Shown in pieces: positions 572-51,633 of a stretch of DNA of 64,000 bases. Location of the stretch: assembly GCF_041860085.1 (NCBI RefSeq), contig NZ_CP124747.1, forward strand, positions 3,224,001 to 3,288,000. Reading direction: 5' to 3'. Under the pieces are notes generated by a model. It did not search any database. It had not been told where the DNA came from and saw only the letters and a list, made by a program, of their open reading frames with translations. Position 1 is the stretch's first letter, and the number at the start of each line of letters is the position of its first letter. Source of the DNA: Schlesneria sp. DSM 10557. GTDB taxonomy: Bacteria > Planctomycetota > Planctomycetia > Planctomycetales > Planctomycetaceae. The position numbers and the translations under genes were made by a program.

Positions 572-574
572 ACC

Positions 575-6308: not shown

Positions 6309-6363
6309 AGTAGTCAATCAATCGACGCATCGAAAGAAGTGATCTGATGCGTTTGATTGGGGT

Positions 6364-10416: not shown

Positions 10417-10453
10417 AAATCGAACTTCATCGAGAGAGGGACTGCACCAGAAG

Positions 10454-13265: not shown

Positions 13266-14342
13266 TCAAAAGTCGAACCAGATCCCCGCCCCGATCATCC
13301 GATCTGATTGTCCCACGAATGACCACTGCATCGAGGGCCCCTCGTAATAACTGACACCCGTTCGCAGCGTATGATTCGATACCCCACGCCATTGCCATCC
13401 AGCCTGGACGGTAATGCTGGTGGTATAGTTGAACTCCTGTCGTGTGTGACCATTGATCGCTGCGAACGGTGCCCCATGCAGACCAAAAACCAACGGGGAG
13501 TACTGAATACCATACTGCAGTTCCAGGGGTTGAGCACCGTCCTGAGCAAACACGGCCCAGGCAATCTCACCATAGACTTGCAGATTGGGACTCATGACGT
13601 CGCGTGTCCATCCAATGATCAGCGAATCTCGAACATAGTTAAGACGTTCAAAACCGATGTTTCGAATCAGGTACTCGTCCCCCACATGCGAACTGAGATG
13701 GTAGTAGCCTGCTTTGAACGCGTTGGGACCTCGACGATGAGTGATCAACCATCCCGCGCGGAAGTCAACAGCCTCAAGGTCATCCTCGTGTCCCATGTCC
13801 ACACGGGGCATCGCCGCCCCTTCGAGGTCGAACTGCCAGCCTTGGGGGTTCACCGAGTTCGTCGTTCCGTAACGCAAAAGGCCGACGTGAGCACCGAGAG
13901 TGTTCTCCCAGATCGCTCCTTTACGACCATTCGCTGCGTAGAAGACAGACGCCATTCGAGACTCTTTTTCACCCGCCAGATAGGCCTTGTACATCAGCCC
14001 GACGGGAAGCACCTGCCACTCGTAGCCAGGTCCTTCGAAAATCTCGTCGAAATTTGACGAGGCGACTGGAACCGCTGGCGCTGCGGGTGTGACCTGTGAC
14101 AGCGGAGGCAAACCTTCCGGAGTCAGATAGGCGGGTGAATCCCCCCCCACAGCCTGCTCCGTCGTTCCCGGTGACTCTGTAGCCGAAAAATTGACTTGCC
14201 TGACTTCCGATTTTTCTTTTATGGGGACGACACTTGCGAGGTTGTAAGGCGGGGCCGGATGACCCTCACTACCTCCCCAGGCCATCGTTGTCAGGCATGC
14301 ACTAAAGATCAGAGTGCTCACTTGGATTTTATATGTCCGCAC
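13266..14342 (-). CDS. DUF1207 outer-membrane protein
   Basis: A 358-residue exported protein. An N-terminal hydrophobic signal (LIFSACLTTMAWG) is followed by a ~70-residue low-complexity proline/serine linker. The DUF1207 domain comes next: VLPVGLMYKAYLAGEKESRMA, then WENTLGAHVGLLRYG, GWQFDLEGAAMPRVD, YHLSSHVGDEY and a C-terminal GAGIWFDF ending in an aromatic residue. Alternating strands and the terminal Phe suit an outer-membrane beta-barrel. The family is abundant in planctomycetes and has no established function. It is a single-gene unit with its own terminator. Confidence 0.88.
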   Translation of the reverse strand: MRTYKIQVSTLIFSACLTTMAWGGSEGHPAPPYNLASVVPIKEKSEVRQVNFSATESPGTTEQAVGGDSPAYLTPEGLPPLSQVTPAAPAVPVASSNFDEIFEGPGYEWQVLPVGLMYKAYLAGEKESRMASVFYAANGRKGAIWENTLGAHVGLLRYGTTNSVNPQGWQFDLEGAAMPRVDMGHEDDLEAVDFRAGWLITHRRGPNAFKAGYYHLSSHVGDEYLIRNIGFERLNYVRDSLIIGWTRDVMSPNLQVYGEIAWAVFAQDGAQPLELQYGIQYSPLVFGLHGAPFAAINGHTRQEFNYTTSITVQAGWQWRGVSNHTLRTGVSYYEGPSMQWSFVGQSDRMIGAGIWFDF

Positions 14343-32391: not shown

Positions 32392-34611
32392 ATGCCTGCT
32401 GAACCACCCCCGCCCAAATCCACCGTGAACCATCAGTTTTCGCGTTCGCACATTGGACGTGCTTCGCGTCTGTTCACTAGCGACACGAAACTGCAGGCGA
32501 CCGGGCGATTCCTGCGACGGGAAATCTGGGCCTGGCCCCTGATCGCCGCAGTCCTTTTCGGAGGTTTGGGATATTGGATCTCCGGAGCCGTCGAAGCGGT
32601 CATGCATCAGGAACGCTCGGAAGAACTGAGCGTGATCGCCGACGCTACCGTCAACGCGCTTGAGATCTGGATCGATGACCAGCGGACGATCGCCCGGTTG
32701 TTCTCCGAAGACCAGGAATTGCGCCCGCTGGTCGCCGATCTCCTCGCCAAACTCCATTTGCCGATGGCCGATCGAAAACTGCTGCAGTCCCCTGCCCAGG
32801 ATGCCTTGCGACAGCGACTGGAAAATCGCCTCACCCAGTCCGGCTTCATCGGTTACTTCATCGTCGCGCCGGGGGGAACCATCCTCGCCGCCGATCATGA
32901 CGCTCCGGTCGGAAAACCGGTCGATCAGTACCGCAAACATCTCTACGACCAGGCTCTGTCAGGCGAAATCGTTGTCTCCAAACCCTTTCGCAGCCCACTT
33001 CTGCTGGACGACGAGAACGGACAATTGCAGCAGAACCTTCCGACGATGATCGTGATCGCCCCCATCGGAAATGACGCGGGAGAACCCCTCGCCGCACTGG
33101 GAATACGCATCCGGCCGGAAAATCAGTTCAGCCGCATCCTGCAGGTCGGCCGATCAGGTCAATCGGGCGAGACCCTTGCCTTCGACAGCAACGGCCTGCT
33201 GCTCAGCCAGAGTCGCTTTGATGAACAACTGAAGCAGTTCGGCCTGTTACTCGATCAGCCCGAAGCCCATTCCACCCTCAGCGTCGAACTGCGTGACCCC
33301 GGGGTCAACATGGTCAAAGGAGGTCGCCCGCAAACACGGCGGCCCGAACAGCCCCTCACCCGTGACGTTGCCAACGCTGTACAAGGAAATTCCGGAAGCG
33401 ATGCCGATGGCTTCCGGGATTATCGGGGAGTCATGAAGGTCGCCGCCTGGCGCTGGCTGCCAAGCCACGATTTCGGCGTGACAACGGAAATGGATGTCGC
33501 GGAAGCATTCCTCCCCGTTTACCTGCTGCGCCGCTCATTCCGGACTCTGATGGCCCTGCTGACTTTCTCGGCCATCGCCATCTTCCTCGCCATGCTCTAC
33601 GCAGCACGCCAGCAACGCTCACTGCAGGATGTGACGCTCGCTGCCATGCAACTGGGCCAATACGCTCTAGAAGAGAAACTGGGATCCGGCGGCATGGGGA
33701 CAGTCTACAAAGCCCGGCATGCCCTGCTCCGCCGCCCCACCGCCGTGAAACTTCTCAGCCTGGAACAGATGTCCGAGTCCGCTGTCGCTCGCTTTGAACG
33801 GGAAGTTCAACTGACCAGTTCGCTCAGCCATCCCAACACCGTCAGCATCTTTGATTACGGACGGACCCCCGACGGCATTTTTTACTACGTGATGGAGTAC
33901 CTCGACGGGATGAATCTCGATGACCTGGTTCGACGCTTCGGTCCCATCCCCGAAACGCGGCTGGTCTATCTGCTGAAACAGGCCTGCGGCGCGCTGGGCG
34001 AGGCGCACGCGGCGGGGCTGGTCCATCGCGATATCAAACCGGCGAATATTTTTCTGACTTCACGCGGAGGCCTGTTCGACTTTGTCAAAGTCCTCGATTT
34101 CGGATTGGTGAAGACATTGACCGCCGCCTCAGAGGCCAACCTGACAAACCCCAACTCGGTCACCGGCACCCCCTACTATCTCTCGCCCGAAGGAGTCAAT
34201 CGCCCCGATCAGGTGGATACGCGGTCGGACGTCTATGCGTTAGGTGCCGTGGCCTATTACCTCCTGACCGGGACTCATGTCTTTGAAGGAGGTACTGTGG
34301 TCGAGATCTGCCTGAAGCACACGCGGGAAACGCCGGAAACCCCATCCCAGCGTCGTGGCCAACCGGTTTCGCCACAACTGGAATCGCTCATCATGAAGTG
34401 TCTGGCGAAATCGCCCGATGAAAGGCCCAAAGACGCGCGCGATCTGCTCCAGACACTCGAATCACTCGAAGTGGCTGGAACCTGGACCGAAACTCACGCT
34501 CAGTTGTGGTGGGAAAGCCACGCCAGCCAGAACCTGACCAATGCCTCCACAACGGTCCTCTTGCCGAATTCCCTCCCCACCGAGGACGGCGCGTCCGACC
34601 AGACACGCTGA
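32392..34611 (+). CDS. Transmembrane Ser/Thr protein kinase with extracytoplasmic Cache-like sensor
   Basis: A 739-residue receptor kinase. A first transmembrane helix (WAWPLIAAVLFGGLGYWI, ~45-62) is followed by a ~320-residue periplasmic part like a double-Cache sensor (SVIADATVNALEIW, SGFIGYFIVAPGGTILAA, SGETLAFDSNGLLLSQSR, WRWLPSHDFGVTTEMD). The second helix is LMALLTFSAIAIFLAMLY (~387). The kinase domain starts at ~424 with KLGSGGMGTVYKARH, AVKLL, VHRDIKPANIFL (Asp547) and VLDFGLVKT, and all catalytic residues are present. It phosphorylates unknown Ser/Thr targets in response to an extracytoplasmic ligand. The last ~15 residues come from a sequence that recurs at 36110-36178. Confidence 0.93.
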   Translation: MPAEPPPPKSTVNHQFSRSHIGRASRLFTSDTKLQATGRFLRREIWAWPLIAAVLFGGLGYWISGAVEAVMHQERSEELSVIADATVNALEIWIDDQRTIARLFSEDQELRPLVADLLAKLHLPMADRKLLQSPAQDALRQRLENRLTQSGFIGYFIVAPGGTILAADHDAPVGKPVDQYRKHLYDQALSGEIVVSKPFRSPLLLDDENGQLQQNLPTMIVIAPIGNDAGEPLAALGIRIRPENQFSRILQVGRSGQSGETLAFDSNGLLLSQSRFDEQLKQFGLLLDQPEAHSTLSVELRDPGVNMVKGGRPQTRRPEQPLTRDVANAVQGNSGSDADGFRDYRGVMKVAAWRWLPSHDFGVTTEMDVAEAFLPVYLLRRSFRTLMALLTFSAIAIFLAMLYAARQQRSLQDVTLAAMQLGQYALEEKLGSGGMGTVYKARHALLRRPTAVKLLSLEQMSESAVARFEREVQLTSSLSHPNTVSIFDYGRTPDGIFYYVMEYLDGMNLDDLVRRFGPIPETRLVYLLKQACGALGEAHAAGLVHRDIKPANIFLTSRGGLFDFVKVLDFGLVKTLTAASEANLTNPNSVTGTPYYLSPEGVNRPDQVDTRSDVYALGAVAYYLLTGTHVFEGGTVVEICLKHTRETPETPSQRRGQPVSPQLESLIMKCLAKSPDERPKDARDLLQTLESLEVAGTWTETHAQLWWESHASQNLTNASTTVLLPNSLPTEDGASDQTR

Positions 34612-34614
34612 GCC
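34546..34614 (+). repeat. 69-bp repeat, copy 1 (3' end of the Ser/Thr kinase gene)
   Basis: This stretch, including the coding end NSLPTEDGASDQTR and stop of the kinase gene, recurs with about six mismatches at 36110-36178. It suggests that the C-terminal codons derive from, or seeded, a dispersed repeat. Confidence 0.7.
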
Positions 34615-34884
34615 CCCACCGCGTTCTCCCCCCGTTTTCCCCACGACCGCTCAACCCGCGGCGAATGAGCGGGATTCACGACATCCCAGCCACCATCTTT
34701 TCCGCCACCGTCTTTCCCGCCAGCATCCTGACGAGTCCCGGCGGAGTCACGATGACGTCCCGAATTGTCAAAGAGCAAAAAATATCGAATCAGCTTGCGG
34801 CCCGTCACGAAGCCACGGCCACGGCCACGAAACCAGCGCTGCCCAGGAATCGCGAACAGCAATAACGCCATCCCCCAAAATTCG

Positions 34885-35989: not shown

Positions 35990-36683
35990 TCACCAGGAGC
36001 CAAAAAAGGGGATGACGTGCAGCCTGATTCTACAAACACATCCCAGCCGAGGTAATGACCCAGCAACCTCCTCCCGTTTGTTTCCCCGATTTCAAAACTG
36101 CGAAACCCGTCCACACCGGTCCCTTTGCCGAACTCCCTCCCCACCGAGGACGGCTCGTCCGCCCAGACACGCTGAGCCTTCACCGCGAAGCCCCCCAAAC
36201 CTAAGCCCAGCACCGTTCAGCCTGAATCTGTTTACTCTCTCCGGTGGAAAATCAATTCACCCATGCACTGAACTCAATGAATTCCGCCCCAGCGAGCCAG
36301 CCATTGACTCAGTAAACAACGTCCGCGCCCCCCGTTCCCACACGTCCTGAAAGGCCAGCACATATCAAACCGGGGCAAAGCGCCGCGGCGAAAGCCGCGC
36401 AGCGACGTAGAACGATCGGTTGCCATCGCCCTGTAAAGGGCACCACAACACCTCCGAAAGGGACATCGCCGAATTCAACACCCGATTCGCCAGCCTCACC
36501 CGTTCCGGTAGAATAAGTGAACTCCTTAGTTCGAAGGAGAAACAGTGAACCCCTTTAGGGCCAACCCTCGGTATGCAACAGCGACCATGCCTCAAGACCG
36601 AGATTCCAATGAGCCGAGGAGCGACCTCGGGGATTGCGCTGCCAAACAGCATCATTCCGGAATACTGACTCGCTGCGAAGGAA
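35990..36683. other. Intergenic with one repeat copy
   Basis: About 690 bases without a clear gene. It holds repeat copy 2 (36110-36178) and a tight hairpin CGCGGC-GAAA-GCCGCG near 36380-36400. Confidence 0.45.
36110..36178 (+). repeat. 69-bp repeat, copy 2
   Basis: About 91% identical to 34546-34614, here outside any gene. It shares the block CTCCCCACCGAGGACGGC and the end CAGACACGCTGAGCC. Confidence 0.7.
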
Positions 36684-37750: not shown

Positions 37751-38656
37751 ATGAGAAAGACTTGGCCAAAAACGAGCGGCGTCGTCATCCGTGGAAGAAC
37801 ACTTCTTCAGGATGAACTGGTGCTGATACGTAAGTTAATCCGAGACAATCCGACTTGGGGTCGTACGAGAATTTCTGAGGCGGTATGCCGGGCGTTGGAT
37901 TGGAGACAGCCTAACGGTCGCCTCAAGGATCGAGGATGTCGCGTCGCACTCCTGAAATTGGAAATGCTCGGCTTCTTATCACTTCCGCCCAAAAAGATCG
38001 ATCGAGGTGGACAGCCCCCCCACATAGAAACCAACTCCAACCTCGATCAAACTGAAATTCGTCAGATGCCTCAAGTGCTGGAATTAAGACTGGTCGAATC
38101 AGTCCGAGACTCGCGTCTGTGGAACTCTTTAATTGCCAACCATCATTATTTAGGGCTCGCTACGCCAGTCGGAAGGTTAGTCCGATACTTGATTCTGGGA
38201 GATGGTGCCATACTTGGCGCAATCTCTTTTTCGGATGCAGCCTGGAGTATCAATGGTAGAGATGAATTGCTTCTTGAATTTGGCCTAAATCGCCAGGAAA
38301 TCAGATCGGCAGTCGTATCGAACAATCGTTTTTTGATCCTGCCGCATGTTCAAGTCCGGAATCTTGCCTCCAGAGTTTTAGCCCTTGCGACATCGCAATT
38401 GCTACTCGATTGGAAGGCAAAGTTCATGTCAACTCCTCAATTCTTTGAAACATTCGTTGATCCACGAAGATTTGAAGGAACGTGCTACCGCGCAGCGAAC
38501 TGGACTCTCGTAGGAAAAACCAAGGGTTTCGCGAAGCATGGCGCGACCCACAGAAACGAAAGACTTCCTAAACTCCTCTTCATGCTTGGTATCGGCTACA
38601 ATTGCCAACGCTTCTTACGCGAAAGGTTTCTGGAGCCGAGTCACCGTGCAGCATGA
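37751..38656 (+). CDS. DUF4338 (DruA-like) protein
   Basis: A 301-residue protein. The N-terminal ~90 residues hold a DNA-binding-like helical part (ELVLIRKLIRDNPTWGRTRI, VALLKLEMLGFLSLPPKK). The DUF4338 domain follows: LWNSLIANHHYLGLATPVGR, RYLILGDGAILGAISFSDAA, VVSNNRFLILPHVQVRNLAS, QFFETFVDPRRFEGTCYRAANW and a C-terminal RNERLPKLLFM. This is the domain of DruA from the Druantia anti-phage system, but it also occurs in other mobile contexts. The other known Druantia genes (for example the DruE helicase) are not here. Its 3' end overlaps the start of the kinase-ATPase gene, suggesting one operon. Confidence 0.85.
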   Translation: MRKTWPKTSGVVIRGRTLLQDELVLIRKLIRDNPTWGRTRISEAVCRALDWRQPNGRLKDRGCRVALLKLEMLGFLSLPPKKIDRGGQPPHIETNSNLDQTEIRQMPQVLELRLVESVRDSRLWNSLIANHHYLGLATPVGRLVRYLILGDGAILGAISFSDAAWSINGRDELLLEFGLNRQEIRSAVVSNNRFLILPHVQVRNLASRVLALATSQLLLDWKAKFMSTPQFFETFVDPRRFEGTCYRAANWTLVGKTKGFAKHGATHRNERLPKLLFMLGIGYNCQRFLRERFLEPSHRAA

Positions 38657-40227
38657 TCGCCGAATCCTTGACGACCTCAACCCGTTACTGCTCTCTGGAC
38701 ATTCTGTCCTGATTGTTTGGAATAGAGACCAGCGATCGTACAAACTGATTGAACAACTTGGGCGAGGACAGACTGCCATTGCTTGGAAGGTCGAAGATTC
38801 CCTCGGGCGAACTTACGCGCTGAAGCTTGTCCCCAAGACTGAGTTTAAAAACCACAGCCTCGACGCCGAAGCACGCAGGGCCAGTAACTTAGATGGAACG
38901 CGATTCGCCAGAGTTGATTTTTATGGTGATTTGCAACTGGACACTGACGTTTCGGCTCTCTCTGCGTTCTATGGGGTGATTGTCGTCTGGATTGAGGGAA
39001 CATCGCTGCAACGATTTTTAGAAGACCCGAATACGGTGGTCGACGGTGCATCATTCTGCCGTCTTGCGAAGGATCTATGTCAAGTTCTTCAAGAATTGCG
39101 TGATTGCCAGCCTCGGCTGACGCATAATGATCTTCACGACGAGAATGTGATTATCTACGCCAAGCGTGACCCACTTTCCAACATTTTTTCTCACCACCTC
39201 ACGGTCATTGACACTGGGCAACTCAAATCAATCGAACGGTGGGACGAGCTGCTTGACAACTGGCGAGATCAATGTTCAACCCTTGAATCTGTCAACAATG
39301 CGTCACTCTCACCCACTATTGTTCGGATCAGGGAACGTATCGAATGGTTCTCAAGAACAGATCAAGAATGGATCGTGTGCCATTTATGCAACTTATACAA
39401 TAAGATGCTTAAAAACGTATCGCGCCTATCGCCATCCGATAAGAAGTTTGCGCGAGATCTCCCAATGCTTCTCTGCCAAATGGTGGATTCTAATCATTCA
39501 AGACGCTTGGACGATCCAACCCAAATGTATCGCGAGGTTGAGCGACTTTGGAGGCAAGCCGTTGAAGTGGGCCCGCCTCCAATGACAACGCCGTTCGACC
39601 TTCCATCAGCGGAGTTGATTCGAAGTGACAGGCAGCTGATGACTCTCTTCTCGGAAGAATACCCGAGGATTGACGCTTGTAGAAGCGGTTCACCACTCTA
39701 TATTTACGGGCCCCGAGGATCGGGTAAATCCACAATTCTTCGGTCATTATCGATAAAAGCCCTTCTCGCTAGCGCAAATCCGAAAGATGAATTGGAGAAG
39801 ATTTCGTTTTTTGGTGTATACCTCTCAAGCAGCCAAGAATTACGTTCCCGATTCTGGCTGATGACGGAATCCGACTTTGCCGCCCTCGAAGGACACGTCG
39901 TACGGTACTTCAATTTGTTGTTGATTGAGGCTCTCGTCGAGACACTGGATTGCTTACACACGACGGCCACCAACACTGCAATCGGTGACGACATCGGAGC
40001 ACTTGGAACGCTAACGACTACTATTGCCCATGAATGCGCGCGCGTGATTCGATACCGGCTTGGCATTGATGCGTCCGGTATTGTTTACTCGGGGATGTCA
40101 GAGTTAAAGTCACTTCGTCACGATATCCAACGAACTCGTGATGATCTGTGGCTCCGTATTCTCGACCGCAGTGAACCCTCTCACCGCCCTGACGCTCAAC
40201 TACTGTTCGACGTAGTCAAAGACTTAG

Positions 40228-41748
40228 CAGCCTGTTGAAAAACTCCCAAAAGCCAATATCCCTGATATACTCAACGGGCCTTGTTGAGAAGATGGTATCT
40301 GGAGGATTTGGCGGTGTCGCTGGGGAAGCGTGAATCAGAGAGTCAACGGGAATTCTGGCTGGAGACGGATCGTCTGGCGACCGGTCCAGGACATGTGTTT
40401 TACGACAAACTCAATCGCTTGCTGCGTGAACACGGGTTTGATCTGTTCGTCGAGCAGTTGTGCCAGCCGCACTACAAGAGTGGTGGCCGCCCTTCGATTC
40501 CTCCAGGCGTCTACTTTCGAATGCTGATGATTGGCTATCTGGAAGGGATCGACTCTCAGCGGGGAATCGCCTGGCGGTGCGAAGACTCCTTGGCGCTGCG
40601 GCGTTTTCTGGGAATCAGCCTGTCGGAAGAGACTCCTGACCACAGCAGTCTGACTCGTATCCGTGATCGGTTACCGCTGTCGGTTCACGAGGAAGTCTTT
40701 CAGTACATCCTGTTTGTGATCGAGGAACAGGGCCTACTGAAGGCCAGGACGGTCGGAGTGGACTCAACGTACCTGGAAGCCAACGCGGCGATGAAGTCCA
40801 TTATCCGCAAAGATACGGGGGAAGACTGGAAGGAGTACCTGAAGCGGTTGATGAAGGAAGAGGGCCTGCTGGGAGAGGGAGATGACGACCCGACGGATGA
40901 GGAACTGCGGCGGTTCGACCAGCAGCGAGCGAAACGAGGAAAGAAGAAGGTCTCCAACGCCGAATGGGCCTCACGTACCGATCCTTCCAGTAAAATTGTG
41001 AAGATGAAGGACGGGCGCACTCACCTGGGCTACAAGGCCGAGCACGTCATTGATCTGGAGAGTGAAGTCATCCTGTCCGCGACCGTTTACACGGGAACGG
41101 AAGGGGATTCGCAGACATTACTGGCGAGCGTTCTGACGGCTCAAACACACTTGGAACAGAGCGGAAGTTCCCTGAAGATTGAAGAGGTGGTGGCTGACAA
41201 GGGGTATCACACGAACGAGCAGTTAGCCGGGGCAGAGGAGATGGACCTGCGGACCTATATCCCCAAGCCGAAGTCCCGTTACCGCCGTCGCTGGAAAGAC
41301 AAACCTGTCGAGCAGCATAGGGCGGTGGCAAACAACCGCCGCCGGATGACTCGGGCGAAGGGAAAGAGCTTGCAGCGTGCTCGCAGCGAGAAGGTGGAGC
41401 GAAGTTTTGCCCACGTCTGTCGGACCGGGGGATCTCGAAGGACATGGCTACGAGGCCTGGCCAAGATCAACAAACGCTATCTGATGGTGGCTGCCACCCG
41501 GAATCTGGGAATCTTGATGCTCAAGCTGTTCGGAATGGGCAAACCGAGGACGCTGCACACGGCCAGGGGCCGTATTTCGGCCATTATTCCGGTCTATAGT
41601 TCACTCAAAATCGCTCTCTGGAGCCATCATCGGCGACACTTCCCTCTACCGGCTACTTGCATGGCCTTCTGAGTCTGTCCGCCACATTTTCTCGCAAATA
41701 CGAAAATCGGATGAAACCTCTGAAATTCACAGATTCTTCAACAGGCTG
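40228..41748 (+). mobile_element. IS1182-like insertion sequence, copy 1
   Basis: A 1521-bp element with terminal inverted repeats: CAGCCTGTTGAAAAA at the left, and the complement CAGCCTGTTGAAGAA at the right. It is flanked by a 4-bp direct duplication TTAG (40224-40227 and 41749-41752), as usual for IS1182 elements. It carries one transposase. An apparently identical copy in opposite orientation is at 44266-45786. Intact ends, target duplication and perfect frame restoration of the host gene show a recent insertion. Confidence 0.92.
40281..41672 (+). CDS. DDE transposase of the IS1182-like element, copy 1
   Basis: A 463-residue transposase beginning at TTG 40281. An N-terminal DUF772-type domain (GGRPSIPPGVYFRMLMIGYL, DSLALRRFLGISL, DHSSLTRIRDRL) is followed by the DDE catalytic domain. 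First Asp in TVGVDSTYLEANAAM, second in VVADKGYHTNEQL, Glu in RSEKVERSFAHVC. A charged insertion (GEGDDDPTDEELRRFDQQRA) separates the first two. Full length, so likely active. Confidence 0.92.
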   Translation: MLRRWYLEDLAVSLGKRESESQREFWLETDRLATGPGHVFYDKLNRLLREHGFDLFVEQLCQPHYKSGGRPSIPPGVYFRMLMIGYLEGIDSQRGIAWRCEDSLALRRFLGISLSEETPDHSSLTRIRDRLPLSVHEEVFQYILFVIEEQGLLKARTVGVDSTYLEANAAMKSIIRKDTGEDWKEYLKRLMKEEGLLGEGDDDPTDEELRRFDQQRAKRGKKKVSNAEWASRTDPSSKIVKMKDGRTHLGYKAEHVIDLESEVILSATVYTGTEGDSQTLLASVLTAQTHLEQSGSSLKIEEVVADKGYHTNEQLAGAEEMDLRTYIPKPKSRYRRRWKDKPVEQHRAVANNRRRMTRAKGKSLQRARSEKVERSFAHVCRTGGSRRTWLRGLAKINKRYLMVAATRNLGILMLKLFGMGKPRTLHTARGRISAIIPVYSSLKIALWSHHRRHFPLPATCMAF

Positions 41749-42859
41749 TTAGAAACAACCTGGTCCATCCTGGCGAATCGACGCATCGTATTTCTGATTG
41801 ATGACTATAGCAACCAACGCATTCCCCGTGCTCTTCAAAAGCGACTCAATCAAGCGATCACTTTTTCCAAACAAGGTAGTCCAATTTTTAAGGTAACTTC
41901 AGAGTACGATGGCGTCGATCTTGAAGGTGTTCAAGAAGGCCGCGAAGTCAGTGAGGTCAACGTTGGCTTCGAATACATTAGCCTCACTGACACACGTCGC
42001 TTTAGATTTCTTCAAAACGTACTGGAGAAACGATTTAAATATTGCGGCTTCGATGTAGACCTACTCACCGTGCTGCCACTGAGCCAGATTGGCCCAGCAA
42101 TTCCAATGGCGAAGTCGATCAAAGATGCTCACCTCAATAGTCGGCGGTTTCATTACCATGGCCTAGATACAATTAGTGACTTGTGCTCAGGCGATTTCGC
42201 GATGGGCATCGATGTCGTTAGAAGGATTTTCGAGCATGCGGCCGCCGATTGGCGACGGCCAACCGCGATTTCAGCCCAGAAGCAAGATGAGGCAGTTCGG
42301 GAATACGCCAAACAAGAATTTGAGTACATTCGACACCAATCGCAAGATGGGCGCCGGAAATACGAGATCGCTGACCGACTGTGCTGGCTGTCAAAGGAAT
42401 GCATCCTCAAGCTGGAAGTGATGAAAGACGGAAAACGAGTTCCTTTGATTAAGAATCATTTGGATGTAAGTGAAAAAGCGTTTCGTGACCTTGAACGCGA
42501 TTTCCCAGAAATGTGGCAACTGTTCCAAGACTTGACTCGTTCCGGTATTCTCTTTCCGATTCAACCGAGTCGTGCGATGGAGGCACGCGATGCGACGAGA
42601 CGATTCATGATCCGCCGAATTTTGCTAGCACGGTATACGACCGTTCTGGGGCGTCATCGACCAATTAGAATTGATGACGTTCAGCGGCTGATGTGGCTTC
42701 TTACAGACCCAGCAGACTTCGTGACAAACGAGCTCGGCTTAGCAGCAGATAGAGAAGATGAAAACGGAGAGTTCACCAGAACAGTGCCAAGGGCTAATGA
42801 TTCAACAAGCTCAGTTCGACAGCGACGGCTCTTTTGAGCACGACTGAAAGGTACGGCGG

Positions 42860-43969
42860 ATGCCTCAGATTTCACAAACCACAATTGCGGACGTTATAGG
42901 AAGGTTGCCGCAACTCGTTTTGTGGAGTGCAGCCAATATTGAGAGCTCAATAAGGCTGCTGATAGTTTGCGCTGGATTTGAAGAACGTGCGGCAGCGATT
43001 GTCAAGGAACTCAAACATGTGACCGTCGATCACCTGCTCGTCATAGAGTATCCGACGAATCAAGCGGAGAACGCAACTTCACTCTCTCGATTTGATTCGA
43101 TCCGCGCGAAGAATCGGCACCATATCAAGTATAGCAGATCGACATTTCTTTCAGACGTAGGACGTGAAGTAGAAAGATGTGTGGGGTCCCCAAGTCGAAT
43201 CCTTATCGACGTTTCAGCGATGGCATCCTACGTCACCTCTCGTGTGTTGAAATCAGTGTGGGAACGATGCGGCTCTTCTTCAGTATTGATTTTTTACGCC
43301 GAGGCCCAGACGTATCATCCCACTCATGATGACTGGAACACGTTTTTCGCCAATGTGCCTGATCCTGACGACAATCTATCGATTGCAGCATGCTACGAAG
43401 ACTCCTACTTTCAATCACGAGGCGTTGATGAGACCTATGAGTGTGATGCATTCCCGGGCCGCAACGAAGGACCGCTTGCAACAGAACTAGTCATTATTCC
43501 GAGCTTCAGTCTTCAGCGAGTCAAGTCGATGACAACTTTAGCAGAAGCAAGGTACAATGTAACTGCAAAGACAACTCATTGGTTTTTGGGATCTCCACCG
43601 AACAAGTCAACCAACGGATGGAGATTTGATGCAGTTGCCAAGCTATATAACGTTCGCTCAGGTGGCGTTGCTGTCGATACGCGGGACTACCGAGATATTC
43701 TCAGAAAGCTCGATGAGACTTGGACAGAAGCACTCAAGAATGAGCGACATTTGGTGCTCGGAGGAATGGGCAGTAAGCTACAGAATATCGGAGTATTTCT
43801 GTTTCTCACGATACATTCCGAATGCGGTTTACTTCATTGCGAACCGAAGGAGTTTATCGCAAACCGCTATACTGAAGGAATTGGCCCGACCTGGTGCTTA
43901 GACATCGGAGAGATTCTGGCGATGAAAGATCTCTTGGAATCGCGAGGATCACTTAAGTTCATGTGGTGA
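42860..43969 (+). CDS. Rossmann-like protein of unknown function, partner of the kinase-ATPase
   Basis: A 369-residue soluble protein, 22 bases downstream of the kinase-ATPase stop. The N-terminal half alternates strands and helices like a Rossmann or TOPRIM-related fold: IRLLIVCAGFEERAAAIVKE, HLLVIEYPTNQAENATSL, ILIDVSAMASYVTSRVLKSV and SSVLIFYAEAQTYHP. The C-terminal half has VLGGMGSKLQNIGVFLFLT and LLHCEPKEFIANRYTEG. I do not recognise a family or catalytic residues, although the conserved-looking FEER, IDVSAM and EAQTYHP patches would suit a nucleotide or nucleic-acid binding effector. Tight linkage suggests it acts with the kinase-ATPase. Confidence 0.75.
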   Translation: MPQISQTTIADVIGRLPQLVLWSAANIESSIRLLIVCAGFEERAAAIVKELKHVTVDHLLVIEYPTNQAENATSLSRFDSIRAKNRHHIKYSRSTFLSDVGREVERCVGSPSRILIDVSAMASYVTSRVLKSVWERCGSSSVLIFYAEAQTYHPTHDDWNTFFANVPDPDDNLSIAACYEDSYFQSRGVDETYECDAFPGRNEGPLATELVIIPSFSLQRVKSMTTLAEARYNVTAKTTHWFLGSPPNKSTNGWRFDAVAKLYNVRSGGVAVDTRDYRDILRKLDETWTEALKNERHLVLGGMGSKLQNIGVFLFLTIHSECGLLHCEPKEFIANRYTEGIGPTWCLDIGEILAMKDLLESRGSLKFMW

Positions 43970-44265: not shown

Positions 44266-45786
44266 CAGCCTGTTGAAGAATCTGTGAATTTCAGAGGTTT
44301 CATCCGATTTTCGTATTTGCGAGAAAATGTGGCGGACAGACTCAGAAGGCCATGCAAGTAGCCGGTAGAGGGAAGTGTCGCCGATGATGGCTCCAGAGAG
44401 CGATTTTGAGTGAACTATAGACCGGAATAATGGCCGAAATACGGCCCCTGGCCGTGTGCAGCGTCCTCGGTTTGCCCATTCCGAACAGCTTGAGCATCAA
44501 GATTCCCAGATTCCGGGTGGCAGCCACCATCAGATAGCGTTTGTTGATCTTGGCCAGGCCTCGTAGCCATGTCCTTCGAGATCCCCCGGTCCGACAGACG
44601 TGGGCAAAACTTCGCTCCACCTTCTCGCTGCGAGCACGCTGCAAGCTCTTTCCCTTCGCCCGAGTCATCCGGCGGCGGTTGTTTGCCACCGCCCTATGCT
44701 GCTCGACAGGTTTGTCTTTCCAGCGACGGCGGTAACGGGACTTCGGCTTGGGGATATAGGTCCGCAGGTCCATCTCCTCTGCCCCGGCTAACTGCTCGTT
44801 CGTGTGATACCCCTTGTCAGCCACCACCTCTTCAATCTTCAGGGAACTTCCGCTCTGTTCCAAGTGTGTTTGAGCCGTCAGAACGCTCGCCAGTAATGTC
44901 TGCGAATCCCCTTCCGTTCCCGTGTAAACGGTCGCGGACAGGATGACTTCACTCTCCAGATCAATGACGTGCTCGGCCTTGTAGCCCAGGTGAGTGCGCC
45001 CGTCCTTCATCTTCACAATTTTACTGGAAGGATCGGTACGTGAGGCCCATTCGGCGTTGGAGACCTTCTTCTTTCCTCGTTTCGCTCGCTGCTGGTCGAA
45101 CCGCCGCAGTTCCTCATCCGTCGGGTCGTCATCTCCCTCTCCCAGCAGGCCCTCTTCCTTCATCAACCGCTTCAGGTACTCCTTCCAGTCTTCCCCCGTA
45201 TCTTTGCGGATAATGGACTTCATCGCCGCGTTGGCTTCCAGGTACGTTGAGTCCACTCCGACCGTCCTGGCCTTCAGTAGGCCCTGTTCCTCGATCACAA
45301 ACAGGATGTACTGAAAGACTTCCTCGTGAACCGACAGCGGTAACCGATCACGGATACGAGTCAGACTGCTGTGGTCAGGAGTCTCTTCCGACAGGCTGAT
45401 TCCCAGAAAACGCCGCAGCGCCAAGGAGTCTTCGCACCGCCAGGCGATTCCCCGCTGAGAGTCGATCCCTTCCAGATAGCCAATCATCAGCATTCGAAAG
45501 TAGACGCCTGGAGGAATCGAAGGGCGGCCACCACTCTTGTAGTGCGGCTGGCACAACTGCTCGACGAACAGATCAAACCCGTGTTCACGCAGCAAGCGAT
45601 TGAGTTTGTCGTAAAACACATGTCCTGGACCGGTCGCCAGACGATCCGTCTCCAGCCAGAATTCCCGTTGACTCTCTGATTCACGCTTCCCCAGCGACAC
45701 CGCCAAATCCTCCAGATACCATCTTCTCAACAAGGCCCGTTGAGTATATCAGGGATATTGGCTTTTGGGAGTTTTTCAACAGGCTG
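44266..45786 (-). mobile_element. IS1182-like insertion sequence, copy 2 (inverted)
   Basis: The same 1521-bp element as copy 1, in reverse, with identical ends. The left flank is TTAG (44262-44265) but the right flank is CTAT (45787-45790), so there is no target duplication. The right end abuts a truncated IS5-type transposase. This suggests a deletion next to the element after insertion. Confidence 0.92.
44342..45733 (-). CDS. DDE transposase of the IS1182-like element, copy 2
   Basis: Identical 463-residue transposase to the one at 40281-41672, with the same DUF772-type N-terminus and DDE residues. Both copies are full length. Homologous recombination between the two inverted copies would invert the 2.5 kb that contain the distal half of the kinase-ATPase gene and its partner gene. 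Confidence 0.92.
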   Translation of the reverse strand: MLRRWYLEDLAVSLGKRESESQREFWLETDRLATGPGHVFYDKLNRLLREHGFDLFVEQLCQPHYKSGGRPSIPPGVYFRMLMIGYLEGIDSQRGIAWRCEDSLALRRFLGISLSEETPDHSSLTRIRDRLPLSVHEEVFQYILFVIEEQGLLKARTVGVDSTYLEANAAMKSIIRKDTGEDWKEYLKRLMKEEGLLGEGDDDPTDEELRRFDQQRAKRGKKKVSNAEWASRTDPSSKIVKMKDGRTHLGYKAEHVIDLESEVILSATVYTGTEGDSQTLLASVLTAQTHLEQSGSSLKIEEVVADKGYHTNEQLAGAEEMDLRTYIPKPKSRYRRRWKDKPVEQHRAVANNRRRMTRAKGKSLQRARSEKVERSFAHVCRTGGSRRTWLRGLAKINKRYLMVAATRNLGILMLKLFGMGKPRTLHTARGRISAIIPVYSSLKIALWSHHRRHFPLPATCMAF

Positions 45787-46045
45787 CTATGGACGAGATG
45801 GACTACCGAAGTGGGTCAAAGAGTCATTCGGATGGATCTTGCAGACGATCTTACGGCCGCCGAACACCAGCGGATTCGTCGTCTTGCCAAAGCGATGGAT
45901 TGTGGAGCGAACTTTTGCCTGGCTGGCGCGACACCGACGTCATAGCAAGGACTACGAGCATAACCCTGAGACCAGCGAAGCCATGATTCAGATCTCCATG
46001 ATCGGACTCATGACCCGAAGGCTTGCTAACCAAAATCGGGTTTGA
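45787..46045 (+). pseudogene. IS5-family transposase remnant (C-terminal third)
   Basis: Directly after the IS1182-like element the frame reads YGRDGLPKWVKESFGWILQT, GFVVLPKRWIVERTFAWLAR, HRRHSKDYE and MIQISMIGLMTRRLA. This is the C-terminal part of an IS5-group transposase, including the Glu of the DDE triad in VERTFAW. The N-terminal two thirds are missing. The remnant had itself inserted in, and now truncates, the PD-(D/E)XK nuclease gene on the other strand. Confidence 0.8.
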
Positions 46046-46354
46046 AGACTTCTTCTTAAACCAGACAAGTTTTGCGATGTCGCGCGCCACGTTCAACGAT
46101 TTTTCGTCCGTCCATTTTACTTCGATCGCGATTTCATTCGCATTCCTCACAGCTACAAAATCAATGCGTTTTTTGTCTCCACCACCGTCGCTGGAAATCT
46201 CATCGCATGGATACTCGCAGGTAACGACATAGCCACGCGCAACGAGAACCCTGATGCACGGTTCGTACAGAATATATTCGCTGAAGATCGTGTTCAGTTC
46301 GCAAGCAGCCCAGTAACTGCCGAATCCGCAAAACGCGCGTTTGATGCGCGTCAA
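46024..46354 (-). pseudogene. PD-(D/E)XK nuclease-like gene, 3' truncated by an IS5 remnant
   Basis: The minus-strand frame encodes FGSYWAACELNTIFSEYILY, EPCIRVLVARGYVVTCEYPC, DKKRIDFVAVRNANEIAIEV and KW. The spacing Asp in RIDFVAV and Glu-x-Lys in IEVKW is the PD-(D/E)XK catalytic pattern of restriction-type nucleases. After about VSKP the frame runs into the antisense of the IS5 transposase remnant, so the C-terminus is lost. The start is uncertain; a TTG at 46354 is chosen, and the frame is open up to 46549. It is transcribed divergently from the next gene. Confidence 0.6.
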
Positions 46355-46547
46355 TGATTCGATCGGCTCCGGATATTCAATACAGTAAACATGCAGTGTC
46401 CCCCAGCACCCCTGTTGCACGAATGCCCTGGCGCCCCAAGACAGATCAATGACCGAAAGCGAATATGGGGGTATTGCAAAGGATGAGGCTGTCGGAGAGA
46501 ATGCGGGAGTGTTTATGCTCCTTGGAAGATCATCGGAGAAAGGCATC

Positions 46548-47633
46548 ATGAAACCTCTCGCCCCTTACTTGGCCTTTGCTCTTTTCATCTCCTTCCAAAC
46601 CATCTTGATTGCGGGTAATCGAGATGAGGAGGGTTTGATCGGTCGCATGAACTCTGAACTCTGTTCGTGCTGTCCAACAGATTCATCCATCGCCAGCCTG
46701 ATACTTGATCTACTTGAAAACAACTATGACTTCCAAGCAAGACCGGAATCCAGAACGAAACCGGACCTTTGGACAATTCTGAATCGGTCGTACAATGGCC
46801 GAAACATTGCATCTCGGCTTCATTCGACCTACCAGAACTCGCTACACGACCACCCATTCTTAACCGAGTCACAACTGATACTTCTACGAGCAGCAGTCGG
46901 TCTTGCACACGATTCGACAGGCAAGATCAACGACTTAGGTGTCGTCAATAGGGCCATGATTCTCGCCGGTGATATCTGTACTGATCGAATCCCGGATAGC
47001 CAGCGTCAGCGAATGTCCCTTTTCACACTGCCATTCTTCGCCAACGCAGCCGCACACCCCCCAGCTGCTCCACCAAGCCAGCAACGCATCACTCGTGCTT
47101 TCAACTATTCGGACGTGGCTGTCTCCGTGCTCTTCCCGCAGGTTCCCACATCATACAGCGCTTCCGACTTGCGCACGAATCACGCCCGGCTCGCTAAAGC
47201 AGTGGAGGCATCAACAACCGACTTAAAGAAGGGAATTCACGCGATCCACCTTCACGCGTTTGCTCTGACATGTTCCGCCTTGGTTCTCGTCGACTTTCGT
47301 GGCGACGACCACTTAAGATGGGACATGCTAGAAAATGCGGACCAGACTACCGTTGATTCATTCACTCATTTAGCGTCCAGTCTTGATCGGCTTGAACATC
47401 TCTTGGGCACTTACCAGCAGCGCACGCGACTGCTCGCCGAAACCGCTGTCCCCCCGAATCAAGATCGGCTAAACTTGGCTCTGCGCGACAGCTTGAAGCA
47501 ACCCATTGCAGATGAGATTACACTTCGATCAAAGCCGAAAGTGGATGCTTTATTTGATATCAGTCAACCGGACACGCTCCCGATCACACTTCTCGATAAA
47601 CTGTTGACTGTAATACATTATGCACCCAACTGA
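46548..47633 (+). CDS. Unrecognised protein with an N-terminal hydrophobic segment
   Basis: A 361-residue protein from ATG 46548; the frame is open from 46449 but the extra 33 residues look non-coding. MKPLAPYLAFALFISFQTIL suggests a signal peptide or anchor. The rest is helical, with FLTESQLILLRAAVGLAHDS, CTDRIPDSQRQRMSLFTLPF, a proline-rich stretch AAAHPPAAPPSQQ and LASSLDRLEHLLGTYQQR. No motif is recognised. It is the first gene rightwards of the truncated nuclease. Confidence 0.6.
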   Translation: MKPLAPYLAFALFISFQTILIAGNRDEEGLIGRMNSELCSCCPTDSSIASLILDLLENNYDFQARPESRTKPDLWTILNRSYNGRNIASRLHSTYQNSLHDHPFLTESQLILLRAAVGLAHDSTGKINDLGVVNRAMILAGDICTDRIPDSQRQRMSLFTLPFFANAAAHPPAAPPSQQRITRAFNYSDVAVSVLFPQVPTSYSASDLRTNHARLAKAVEASTTDLKKGIHAIHLHAFALTCSALVLVDFRGDDHLRWDMLENADQTTVDSFTHLASSLDRLEHLLGTYQQRTRLLAETAVPPNQDRLNLALRDSLKQPIADEITLRSKPKVDALFDISQPDTLPITLLDKLLTVIHYAPN

Positions 47634-48039
47634 ATCCTCTCGCCAGCTTCTGAGCATCCGGGCAGATTCGGTTCACTTTGCCACTTTGGGAATCGCGTCA
47701 CCGATCAAGCGGCAGGTCGCCAAGCCGGCAGCTTCCATACAAGAGTTTGCGTCACTCAGTTGGAGAAATCCTGCGGTACTGACGACTGCGATTCACCCGG
47801 AAATGCTCGATTCGCAGATATTCTGAACCAGACCGCAATTGCTTCCATTATTCAACCAGCAACTCGTTGCCAAAGAACCGGCAGACTGCGAATTCTGGGG
47901 TCACATTGACACCTCGCAGAAGTCCCCCGAGCACGGATGGCATCGAGAGGAATCGCGTAGGCTGGTGTACAAGGTAGTCTGCAGATAAACTGCATTGATC
48001 TTTCGGAGCCTTGCCTTCCGCTTTCAGCTGGAGATGCGT
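47634..48039. other. Intergenic, one doubtful short frame
   Basis: About 400 bases before the three-gene operon. A 68-codon frame (47620-47826) starts with ATG overlapping the previous gene's end, but its composition is unconvincing. The promoter of the operon should lie here. Confidence 0.35.
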
Positions 48040-49020
48040 ATGCCCTCAAACTCACTCTTAATTCGGACGACCGGATCGCATCGATTCTCGCGAAACAACG
48101 TGGACGGACATTCCTTTTGTTTTCCATCTACCGTCAGCCTGTTCGAAGTCAAGGCTGAGCAGATTCTTCTCTCGGTAGCAGGGGCGTACGACGACAACGC
48201 CGATTTCCTTAATGACCTTCGCGTCTGCGTCCGGTACTTCGACAACAATTCCGGCAACCCGAGTACCGTCGATGTAACCCACTCGCTATCGAAGCACTAT
48301 TCAGATGCAGTCGTCGCTGTGTGCCCCGACGAGGCTGAATTCACTCACCGTCTCATTGATTGTTTTATAGACAAAGTGGCATTTTGGGAGCCGGACGTAA
48401 CCATCGCAAACCGAGAGGCCCGCGCGACTGAAGTGCTTCAAGACATTTATCGCAGGTTGCCACAACAAGGAGCAATCGGGAAGCTGGGAAATGGAAACAA
48501 TGCGGCAAACCTTGCTGAGTACCACTGGTTTGAGGTTGTTCATTCGATACTTCCGTCACTTCCTATAGACCTCAATGTCGTTTGTCAGCAGTTGGCGGGG
48601 ATTGAACTTGTTCGACTGCATGAGCCGATTTCGTTGATCTTCACTACCGGACCTGCAACTAAATCGCTTAACGGACCGGCACCACTTAGTCGCGCAGCTC
48701 GAAATGACGTGGGTGCTACATTCAATAGGGGAGGGCTGTTTGCCGACCTCTCAGTTGTTTACCGCAATCCTCTTCTTGATGAGTTGCATGACATTGACAG
48801 ACAGCTCGATGCAATCCGCGCTGACATCCAGTTGCTTCAAGATGATACAAATATACTGTTCGCAACGATCGATCAGATCAACCAAAATCTAAGCACCGCA
48901 TTGATTGCGTACGATCATGTTAAGAATACAACTAACGGAATCAGGATCCGCGTAGCCGAACTTCAGAATCGGATTCGCGAGAATACGGGCATTCTCCAAG
49001 GAATTAGTAATCGGCTCTAA
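48040..49020 (+). CDS. Unknown protein with C-terminal coiled coil (operon gene 1)
   Basis: A 326-residue protein. ATG 48040 is chosen because GGAG lies 6 bases upstream; the frame is open from 47995. The N-terminal half is globular (HSFCFPSTVSLFEVKAEQIL, LNDLRVCVRYFDNNSG). The last ~85 residues form a coiled coil (LLDELHDIDRQLDAIRADIQ, LLQDDTNILFATIDQINQNL, RIRVAELQNRIRENTGILQ). No signal peptide. It is 21 bases from the next gene, with which it probably forms a complex. Confidence 0.7.
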   Translation: MPSNSLLIRTTGSHRFSRNNVDGHSFCFPSTVSLFEVKAEQILLSVAGAYDDNADFLNDLRVCVRYFDNNSGNPSTVDVTHSLSKHYSDAVVAVCPDEAEFTHRLIDCFIDKVAFWEPDVTIANREARATEVLQDIYRRLPQQGAIGKLGNGNNAANLAEYHWFEVVHSILPSLPIDLNVVCQQLAGIELVRLHEPISLIFTTGPATKSLNGPAPLSRAARNDVGATFNRGGLFADLSVVYRNPLLDELHDIDRQLDAIRADIQLLQDDTNILFATIDQINQNLSTALIAYDHVKNTTNGIRIRVAELQNRIRENTGILQGISNRL

Positions 49021-49041
49021 CGTCGACACCGGAGATCGACC

Positions 49042-50403
49042 ATGCCTAGACTTCCCCCATCGATTGATGCTTTCGAGCGTTTTGCGCGACTCGCAGACGA
49101 TTTTCCGGACGAAGCTCTTTACCGCGGCTCAGTAGCGGTAATGCGCTCCAGTGAATCTTATCTTTCGACTGCGACTCAGGCAGCCGCCAAGATCGATCGG
49201 CACCTAAAACGCGATTGGGACCATCGAAAAGCAGGCGAAGTTCATCTTTCTGACGTCCTAATGAAGGAACTTGCCACCAGTGGGGTTGAGATTCCAGTCA
49301 TTCCGGACATGACCTTAGGCGAGCTTGTAATTCCAGTTGATGGCCCTTTTGTGCTCGTGCCATTCACGGGGACCCGGGACATTCCTGACCCTAGCGGTGC
49401 CTTGGTCACGTACACACTAACCCTTACTGTCTTTCTTGACATCCAACTTTCCTTATCTCAGAACGAGGTGGTTGCGTCGCTCAATGTTGCCCATGTCGAT
49501 TTTTCGATCCAGCCGCCTTTCGACAATCCCGATCAGTTTCCTCCCGCTGATTTAACTTCTTACGCGAAGAAGGATGTTGAACTGGATACCTATCGCGAGA
49601 TCATCAGGCAGTTGCGTGTATGGGATCCGCAGATCAATGACTGGCGTAAGGGGAAGTCGATGTGGTCCCTTAGCCTGCCTGCACGGCTTGAGGGGCCAAC
49701 AGGCTTCGATATGCCACGCCCATTCGCGATTGCATTTTGGAATGGGGTATCCGTGTTTTTGAGGGATCGGACGGGAACTCAACTCGGGAGAAATGCGCGG
49801 GACAACAGTCACCATTACGCAGTATTGTTGTCTGTTGAGCCATTCAAGGACTATATGAAGAGTCCGGAGCACGGCCTGACGTACTCAGAGGGAAACGTTG
49901 GTAACGATGAGAGTACGTGGAAGAAGGTCGAACCCGGCGAAATCCGAGTAACATCTGGATCAGAAATAACTGCCAGGGCACATTTTCAGTATCACCACTT
50001 CATCGGTGGCTCGAAAGGATGCAACTGGCTGTTTTGCTGGGACACTCGAATGTGGATCGGAGTTCGTGATGATGTAGATATCCAGCTAGCTTTTGCAAGC
50101 GTTGAAAGAAACAACGAAGTATTCGTCGAAGTCACGCCTCGGCATAACTATGGTGGGCCCGACGACGGAGACATTTATTACAAGAATCTTCGCTTGTTGC
50201 TTCAATGGTTTGGCTTCATCAAAGATGGGATTCGTGCGATGGTGCGAATGGTTGTCAACGACCGGCTTGCAGCAATTGAGCAGGAGGAACTTACGGTGCC
50301 ATTGCCCGAGTTCGACCGTCCCTTGAATGTTGCCTCGCATTCTGTCAGCCTCAGAGGCGGAGCCGAGGAAACCCTAAGCGTCGTGGTAGACTTCAACCTC
50401 TAA
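49042..50403 (+). CDS. Unknown beta-rich protein, possibly lipid-binding TULIP-like (operon gene 2)
   Basis: A 453-residue soluble protein with a good ribosome-binding site (CGGAG, 7 bases from ATG). Long amphipathic strands occur, for example LGELVIPVDGPFVLVPFTG, TYTLTLTVFLDIQLSL and EVVASLNVAHVDFSIQPPF. A Trp-rich centre reads CNWLFCWDTRMWIGVRDD. The C-terminal VVNDRLAAIEQEELTVPLPE then SHSVSLRGGAEETLSVVVDF recalls the ends of TULIP/BPI-type domains. That resemblance is weak and by eye only. It lies between the coiled-coil gene and the CFI-box gene. Confidence 0.65.
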   Translation: MPRLPPSIDAFERFARLADDFPDEALYRGSVAVMRSSESYLSTATQAAAKIDRHLKRDWDHRKAGEVHLSDVLMKELATSGVEIPVIPDMTLGELVIPVDGPFVLVPFTGTRDIPDPSGALVTYTLTLTVFLDIQLSLSQNEVVASLNVAHVDFSIQPPFDNPDQFPPADLTSYAKKDVELDTYREIIRQLRVWDPQINDWRKGKSMWSLSLPARLEGPTGFDMPRPFAIAFWNGVSVFLRDRTGTQLGRNARDNSHHYAVLLSVEPFKDYMKSPEHGLTYSEGNVGNDESTWKKVEPGEIRVTSGSEITARAHFQYHHFIGGSKGCNWLFCWDTRMWIGVRDDVDIQLAFASVERNNEVFVEVTPRHNYGGPDDGDIYYKNLRLLLQWFGFIKDGIRAMVRMVVNDRLAAIEQEELTVPLPEFDRPLNVASHSVSLRGGAEETLSVVVDFNL

Positions 50404-50436
50404 CACTCACATACTCGCATGTTCGGAGTTTCGATT

Positions 50437-51633
50437 ATGCCAACCTACCGACTTCCTGCCAAACACTTTGCGCCGCTTGGCAGAGTGTTCTTTACAATGT
50501 TGCGCCAGCTCAGCAGGAGTGAGATCCAGGAGATTGAGGTTGGTGAGCTGCTTTCGGCGGTCCCAGTAATCAGATACCGGAGTGAATCGGATGGGAGGCT
50601 GCTCCACGCACGAGGAAAGCTGGAACGAACCCAAGCCGGCACAGCCATCTTTAACCAGCCACGCAGGCCAATTACTATCCAAGTCGGGTTTATCCAGGAG
50701 AACTTCCCACCTAATAATGCAGACCAGCTTATTCTCGCTGACATCGCGCCTCGCATTCAGGCATCTCATACGGTGAGGGATGACACATACGAACTCGTCT
50801 TCATTGAGGACCTGTCGCACAGTCCGCCCATAAAGAGGCCATATATTACGTTCCCCGGCCACCCGACTCTCACAGGCGAACACCTCACGCGAGTGTTTTT
50901 CAACGGCGACGAAGTGCATATAGTATTGGAGAACAACACGATCATCGGTGATTACACGAGATCTCTGGAAGACGAGGGGATTAAGAGAGACTTCAGGCCG
51001 AAAAACGAACGAACCCGCGTGGTGAAGATCGGTACATTGCTGGATCTCAACACAAACAAGCAGTATCGAGTAATCGAGGGTTACTTCAAGATTGCGAAGG
51101 CGAAGCGCGAGCATATCGATTGCGATCCGGGCGACCAATACTGTGATTCCGAGCGGTGCAACGTCGATATATCTTACGAGTCAGGCGAAATCGAAGTGCC
51201 GGATGGAACTTCCGAGGAGGCTGCAATCCAGGAAGCTTGCGAGGCGAAGGAACGCGAAGTTGGTGACTTCGAATGGGATGAAGTGAAAGTAGTATGGACT
51301 AGGGAGAAGGGGAGTGATAGTGGTTCCCGTAACTTTCCTAAGGGAGCAGGTAGGTGCGTAGATGACGCAGTGTCCATAGGTGGGACCTGCCAGTGCTACG
51401 TTGTCACTGCCACATACGGCGAGTCGCAGATTCTCGATGTTTATCGCTCCTTCCGCGATAACACACTTTCTCGAAGCGGCTTCGGCCAACGATTCATTCG
51501 CTGGTACTACTGCAACGGCCCTAAACTGGCATCTGCCTGCAAGAGTTCAAGATTATTTCACCTCGCTTCCCGCATTGTCATCTACGTAATCTACTTGGGG
51601 TTGCGGCCCTTTTATCATCGAAAACTAAAGTGA
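50437..51633 (+). CDS. CFI-box C-terminal domain protein (operon gene 3)
   Basis: A 398-residue protein; ATG 50437 has CGGAG 8 bases upstream and is preferred over the ATG at 50419. Residues 1-230 are an unrecognised beta-rich domain; a cysteine-containing acidic segment (DCDPGDQYCDSERC) follows. The C-terminal ~65 residues match the CFI-box type: CYVVTATYGESQILDVYRSF then RDNTLSRSGFGQRFIRWYY, where canonical members read CFIATAAYG...LRRFRD. A hydrophobic helix (LASRIVIYVIYLGLRPF) and a basic end complete it. The arrangement suggests membrane insertion or attachment of the C-terminus. Last gene of the operon. Confidence 0.75.
   Translation: MPTYRLPAKHFAPLGRVFFTMLRQLSRSEIQEIEVGELLSAVPVIRYRSESDGRLLHARGKLERTQAGTAIFNQPRRPITIQVGFIQENFPPNNADQLILADIAPRIQASHTVRDDTYELVFIEDLSHSPPIKRPYITFPGHPTLTGEHLTRVFFNGDEVHIVLENNTIIGDYTRSLEDEGIKRDFRPKNERTRVVKIGTLLDLNTNKQYRVIEGYFKIAKAKREHIDCDPGDQYCDSERCNVDISYESGEIEVPDGTSEEAAIQEACEAKEREVGDFEWDEVKVVWTREKGSDSGSRNFPKGAGRCVDDAVSIGGTCQCYVVTATYGESQILDVYRSFRDNTLSRSGFGQRFIRWYYCNGPKLASACKSSRLFHLASRIVIYVIYLGLRPFYHRKLK

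Follow-up and report, generated by a model that had tools for sequence, protein, structure and literature searches.

What do three tightly packed genes in an AT-rich island of a planctomycete chromosome do together? The genes, here called A, B and C, lie in a 64,000-nucleotide (nt) window, by which we mean positions 3,224,001 to 3,288,000 of contig NZ_CP124747.1 of Schlesneria sp. DSM 10557, a genome of 7.07 Mb in one contig; coordinates in this locus are those of the window. All three are on the + strand, and they encode a DruA/DUF4338-family protein, a kinase-ATPase fusion and a tandem CARF protein, respectively. We tentatively suggest, as a plausible reading that we do not hold firmly, that they form a conserved three-gene cassette of the defence type, with the CARF protein as sensor, the kinase-ATPase as transducer and the DruA protein as output. 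The features are as follows:

Gene A: 37751..38656, + strand; DruA/DUF4338-family protein, 301 amino acids (aa); Pfam DruA PF14236, E 1.2e-27.
Gene B, 5' piece: 38646..40227 (open reading frame to 40235), + strand; Ser/Thr-type protein kinase domain and first part of an ORC/CDC6-like AAA ATPase, P-loop GPRGSGKST; PF24389, E 6.1e-16.
Insertion sequence (IS) inside gene B: 40228..41748, + strand; 1521 bp, DUF772/DDE transposase at 40281-41672.
Gene B, 3' piece: 41749..42837, + strand; rest of the ATPase, Walker B IDDYS, C-terminal part; PF24389, E 4.7e-15.
Gene C: 42860..43969, + strand; tandem CARF protein, 369 aa, Rossmann-like halves at about 30-155 and 205-357.
Second IS copy: 44266..45786, - strand; inverted, at the island border, identical over 1521/1521 positions to the copy at 40228-41748.

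The features that a first-pass annotation had named in the three genes, working from the letters of this DNA, were recovered in their places by open reading frames (ORFs), Pfam matches and motifs. The overlap it gave between genes A and B holds if B starts at the GTG at 38646, the start chosen here, and its gap of 22 bases between B and C is correct. The island is AT-rich as described: GC content is 0.477-0.495 (about 0.48-0.50) in the cassette genes, as against 0.563 on the left flank and 0.574 far to the right. It had also called the island IS-bordered, which is right for the second copy and wrong for the first, as the latter sits inside gene B, flanked on both sides by TTAG (40224-40227 and 41749-41752). 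Because this insertion splits the ATPase between its P-loop and Walker B, the sequence indicates that the gene B copy here is very probably inactive, and the cassette in this genome non-functional. Searches of the genome with the cassette's own sequences returned one match each for A and C, and one extra weak match (E 2.8e-4) for the first B piece.

Domains and conserved active sites

The two pieces of gene B were searched separately, rather than as a reconstructed protein of 888 residues. Both match the PADLOC model CARF6--CARF_STK_AAA (PDLC01925), the 5' piece at 6.8e-16 and the 3' piece at 2.1e-8 (profile positions 502-689), and together with most of C they cover successive parts of this one profile. 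The label CARF6 presumably stems from the 2020 CARF classification. The fusion has 77 relatives besides itself at E<=0.001 (best 7995 candidates scored), many of them intact at about 840-900 aa, and the nearest shares 65% identity across 99% of the piece. In an alignment (A2) of 48 of these 78 sequences, that is 47 near-full-length relatives and the window piece, every one of the 47 relatives has the kinase residues K, E, HxD, N and D, and 46/47 have the G of DxG; the ATPase P-loop GPRGxGKS, its arginine included, and Walker B DDYS are likewise invariant in 47/47. An N-terminal CxxC pair is present in two relatives described below (loci L032 and L023), while none was seen at the start of the window's gene B.

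Gene C has a CARF fold, as judged from the PADLOC match, comparison of its predicted structure and conserved residues after strands 1 and 4; in the predicted model two CARF halves take up the entire protein. As the annotation had expected, profile match and structure comparison thus place the partner outside the housekeeping families. Its nearest relative is 66% identical. Across the A1 alignment (25 of 28 listed relatives, three short ones excluded), the residues following strand 1 (CxGFExR; PxFSxxR) and strand 4 (DxSxMxS; GSKxQ) are invariant in 25/25 rows. These are the positions named as the CARF ligand pocket in the passages of PMC4012209 on this fold, and we count this in favour of gene C being a CARF sensor.

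As for a possible ligand, Cas10-palm (PF22335) has no match in the window genome (0/1), while 4 of 8 other carrier genomes match at E<=1e-3, 2 of them above the cut-off, with a model that also matches the E. coli control genome and may not be Cas10-specific. SMODS was found in 0/9 genomes. On these results we consider cyclic oligoadenylate (cOA) and a ligand that no dedicated cyclase makes, for example RNA ends (the proposal for RtcR), equally likely.

The predicted structure of gene A consists of an N-terminal helical domain, which may be helix-turn-helix-like, and a C-terminal domain (residues about 107-295) that fold comparison identifies as having the GNAT/Mom fold. The serine S207 is kept in 120/120 DruA relatives (the best 120 of 3724 matches at E<=1e-5), and Pfam Mom matches 44 of the 57 members of the A3 alignment (55 of the 120 listed DruA relatives and two loci) at E<=0.01. 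To our knowledge no role has been established for DruA within Druantia; given its Mom-like fold and invariant serine, the protein can be tested directly. A search of PDB sequences with the DruA profile gave a lone match at E 0.12, which is meaningless and was discarded.

Recurrence of the gene order

The annotation had proposed looking for a recurrent neighbourhood of the fusion with DUF4338 and the Rossmann-like gene, and this order does recur in distant genomes. Profile searches of loci and ORF listing found A-B-C in an Acidobacteriota metagenome-assembled genome (MAG; locus L013, JAIOJS010000595.1) at 8037-9101, 9113-11728 and 11725-12855, and in genome G683 of the window's class (L031) at 6749-7861, 7858-10659 and 10652-11767. 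In an Actinomycetota MAG (G750, JAGXFW010000031.1), A and B lie at one contig end (L014; 8918-9901, 9911-12004). Another contig end carries the remainder of B, followed by C (L037; 271-723, 725-1864), and we take the two to be one locus. Order and strand are the same and the spacing tight in all four A-carrying loci, where neighbours overlap by up to 11 bases or lie up to 22 bases apart. Of the 7 loci with a visible upstream region, 4 (the window, L013, L014 and L031) have gene A immediately before B; two others are broken (L018 in G369, L020 in G315) and one runs off its contig (L019 in G160), so that the upstream region is not judgeable in these three. The neighbourhood with DruA in front is frequent, not universal.

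The profile scan of genome contigs with A2 gave 5 loci, L013 and L014 being full relatives; the other three (L015-L017) share a short ATPase stretch alone and were excluded. A single-sequence scan of genome contigs for partner relatives returned none, nor did the fusion piece find any match in plasmids (tblastn). Among viral contigs the A2 scan found one relative, L023, on an IMG/VR contig with Mu-like transposition genes. This phage-borne relative (9470-12040) carries a Zn-ribbon-like N-terminus ahead of the kinase-ATPase and lies near a repressor-like gene; its fusion reaches the contig end, where a downstream CARF gene could not show.

Two loci hold B and C without an upstream A. One (L030 in G462, a genome of the window's class) has a full-length DruA gene (12563-14041, - strand; PADLOC 1e-106) just downstream, convergent to the kinase-ATPase/CARF pair; here the core is accompanied by DruA of another kind. 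In the other (L032 in G551; 524-11597) the pair has HamA and a DEAD-type helicase (Hachiman-like) in its vicinity, along with a gene for a caspase-like peptidase.

Linkage in a wider sample

Linkage was also assessed as equal size of the longest contig across three protein searches, a measure taken from protein matches and not from the DNA itself. Contigs of at least 5 kb were counted, with self removed; the DruA list holds the best 120 of 3724 matches, and the counts are lower bounds. At least 27 of the 67 fusion contigs match one of the 71 contigs of listed DruA relatives, at least 10 of 16 partner contigs coincide with fusion contigs, and at least 7 coincidences are three-way. Before the cut-off there were 28 A-B and 11 B-C coincidences; those of 2764 nt (A-B) and 1878 nt (B-C) were dropped as too short to hold both genes. 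By chance about 0.25 A-B coincidences are expected, as estimated from near-misses, and equal sizes within one list were never seen.

On a quick DruA tree of 124 rows (the 120 listed proteins and 4 from loci), 27 of 45 proteins on contigs of at least 5 kb are linked outside the general (starred) DruA clade of 40 proteins, versus 0 of 26 inside it (Fisher p 8e-8, for rows that are related and not independent, and for a split chosen after the tree was viewed). L013, L014 and L031 have DruA proteins that stand beside the general clade (starred 43-row set), away from the window's kin. What we claim is the contrast between the general clade and the remaining listed DruA proteins, and not a single origin.

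Distribution and surroundings

The fusion profile finds 6/397 genomes of the window's class at 1e-20, its own included, in a sample that overlaps with that of the phylum; it finds 1/396 in the phylum of genome G749 and 1/392 in that of G750, in each case the centre genome itself. Carriage of the cassette on mobile elements fits the data, because the carriers' neighbours include a serine recombinase (with DUF5906 and ParB_N proteins) in G683, a TraG-type protein in G462 and an integrase in G160.

In the window, a 102-nt direct repeat (34531-34632 and 36095-36196, 81% identity) lies ahead of the cassette. Beyond the second IS copy, an ORF on the - strand (45851-46549) has a weak Holliday-junction-resolvase/nuclease-like stretch (PF01870 Hjc 1.1e-3; PADLOC PDC-S01 1.9e-3) and, judged by eye, overlaps a transposase-like fragment ORF (45740-46045). 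It is followed by four successive + strand ORFs with no Pfam match under E 0.1 (46449-47633, 47995-49020, 49042-50403 and 50419-51633), the last of which contains a CFI-box-CTERM domain (NF041770, 7.9e-13). This region (46449-51633, GC 0.513) is possibly another accessory island.

Proposed mechanism and alternatives

We believe that the cassette is probably an anti-virus alarm system; its defence role, the class of its ligand, the direction of signalling and the part of gene A as effector rather than self-marker are what we infer from the domains, conserved active sites, gene order and recurrence observed. Gene C would act as the sensor, its tandem CARF halves pairing as a pseudo-dimer whose pocket would bind a nucleotide-derived signal produced in infection. 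Gene B, with its kinase and ORC/CDC6-like AAA ATPase, would be the transducer, undergoing ATP-dependent oligomerisation and phosphorylating partners once the CARF protein is liganded. Gene A would be the output, its Mom/GNAT-like fold adding a chemical group to DNA or RNA bases; the target would most simply be the invader's nucleic acid, whose replication or expression would be halted. In its full form, namely a hitherto unnamed immune system of three genes whose tandem CARF protein senses a nucleotide and gates a kinase/ORC-CDC6-type ATPase that switches on a Mom-like, base-hypermodifying DruA enzyme, we regard this proposal as doubtful, if possible. If true, it would make nucleic-acid modification a phosphorylation-gated defence output and give the DUF4338/DruA family its first function.

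Several observations weigh against this proposal. Gene A scores 20.8 bits on Pfam Mom, under the cut-off of 27.1, the DruA and Mom profiles align weakly (Prob 2.2, E 0.022), and a GNAT-like fold does not dictate which reaction is catalysed. The Cas10-palm and SMODS searches revealed no origin for a cyclic-nucleotide signal in the window genome. The fusion family is rare (3/392 genomes in the window's phylum at E<=1e-30, its own included), and the literature searched yielded no experiment on any member. The DruA rows associated with the fusion are not one clade: they require 27 changes on the tree, against a mean of 28.5 when shuffled, and a value as low arose in 134/500 shuffles. Finally, because upstream DruA is missing in 3 of the 7 loci (L030, L032 and L023), and because PF14236 was found in 0 of 3 genomes carrying B/C relatives (G315 and G369, where the B/C copies are broken, and G160, which is 61% complete; it was found in G749 and G750), gene A is not essential to the B/C core.

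This last point bears on the idea that gene A is an unrelated passenger and that B and C alone make up the system. DruA-family genes are abundant, as the 3724 matches attest, and the scatter of the associated rows over the tree also suits a passenger, as do the loci L030 and L032 and the three carriers that lack PF14236. We nonetheless consider it quite improbable, given that order and tight spacing are the same in distant genomes, that linkage among the listed DruA proteins divides as 27/45 versus 0/26, that a different full-length DruA is convergent to B and C in L030, and that the one DruA match in this genome speaks against a multi-copy element here. The absence of an upstream DruA in L030 and L032 tells against a split reminiscent of restriction-modification, where gene A would mark host DNA as Mom does and the CARF/kinase/ATPase part would attack, or shut the cell down on, unmarked or damaged DNA; an obligate self-marker would forbid such loci, and neither B nor C has a nuclease domain by Pfam. 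The self-marker has precedents in Mom, which according to the text seen of PMC6483171 protects phage DNA from restriction, and in the putative GNAT-driven self-tagging proposed, in the relevant passages of PMC12839542, for BREX-related capture systems that have ORC/Cdc6 ATPases; we rate it as unlikely.

A role in stress or RNA-repair signalling, in which the CARF protein would respond to a nucleotide or to RNA ends (the RtcR proposal) and the kinase-ATPase would regulate host processes, would suit a window genome with no Cas10-palm or SMODS match. The rare and patchy distribution and the mobile-element and defence neighbours are unlike those of a housekeeping regulator, and make this role rather improbable. 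That the locus is a variant of Druantia is hardly credible. Gene A does belong to the Pfam DruA family (PF14236), which is what it shares with that system, and the annotation was right that the other Druantia parts are absent beside it: a PADLOC scan of ten ORFs (E<=1), which covered gene A, gave no match to any Druantia model, DruA included, and B and C match other models. No DruE-type helicase was seen in these ten ORFs, and ten further ORFs of the window (Pfam) contain a UvrD-type helicase (53286-57101) only; this search was confined to the window.

The three-gene defence cassette that we favour would join three orphan parts of prokaryotic conflict biology: a CARF protein that lies outside type III CRISPR and for which no cyclase was found, the kinase-ATPase of 2014 with no surrounding system, and DruA. 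The intact cassettes in relatives are open to laboratory testing.

Comparison with known systems

Among type III CRISPR CARF proteins, those likened to gene C in structure are led by the double-CARF nuclease 6sce, which we take to be Can1; gene C differs in having no nuclease domain by Pfam. Signalling by cOA leads one to expect a Cas10-type cyclase, unlike the window genome with its lack of a Cas10-palm match. Gene A is 15% identical to Mom of phage Mu, has an extra N-terminal domain, and is a putative modifying enzyme.

BREX-related capture systems, as presented in those parts of PMC12839542 that concern them, resemble the cassette in bringing together an ORC/Cdc6-type ATPase and a GNAT protein in one conflict locus. 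These parts describe no CARF protein, and neither PglZ nor HerA was seen in the scanned ORFs of the cassette (Pfam, PADLOC).

The closest likeness is to the Zn ribbon-kinase-AAA+-CARF-wHTH (winged helix-turn-helix) proteins, a family with an arginine within the P-loop that the pertinent section of PMC4012209 (Makarova et al.) described in 2014 as a fused protein. The kinase, the AAA+ domain with its P-loop arginine and the CARF domain are shared; their N-terminal Zn ribbon was not seen in the window protein. This family and PADLOC PDLC01925 appear to be one and the same. The first-pass annotation could not name the family. Names are available, however: the partner belongs to the tandem CARF proteins, and the combination of kinase, AAA and CARF is modelled in PADLOC and has been in print since 2014. 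Its likening of the layout to STAND-type modules came close, the Pfam name for the ATPase being ORC-CDC6-like. Its label of an undescribed system fails for the fused kinase-AAA-CARF, which is already known, and stands for the rest, as the limited open-licence literature searched yielded neither the DruA partner nor the split into three genes. The new elements are thus the DruA-family gene in front, and the division of what is elsewhere a single polypeptide, here with CARF as a separate gene of two CARF halves, within a three-gene cassette.

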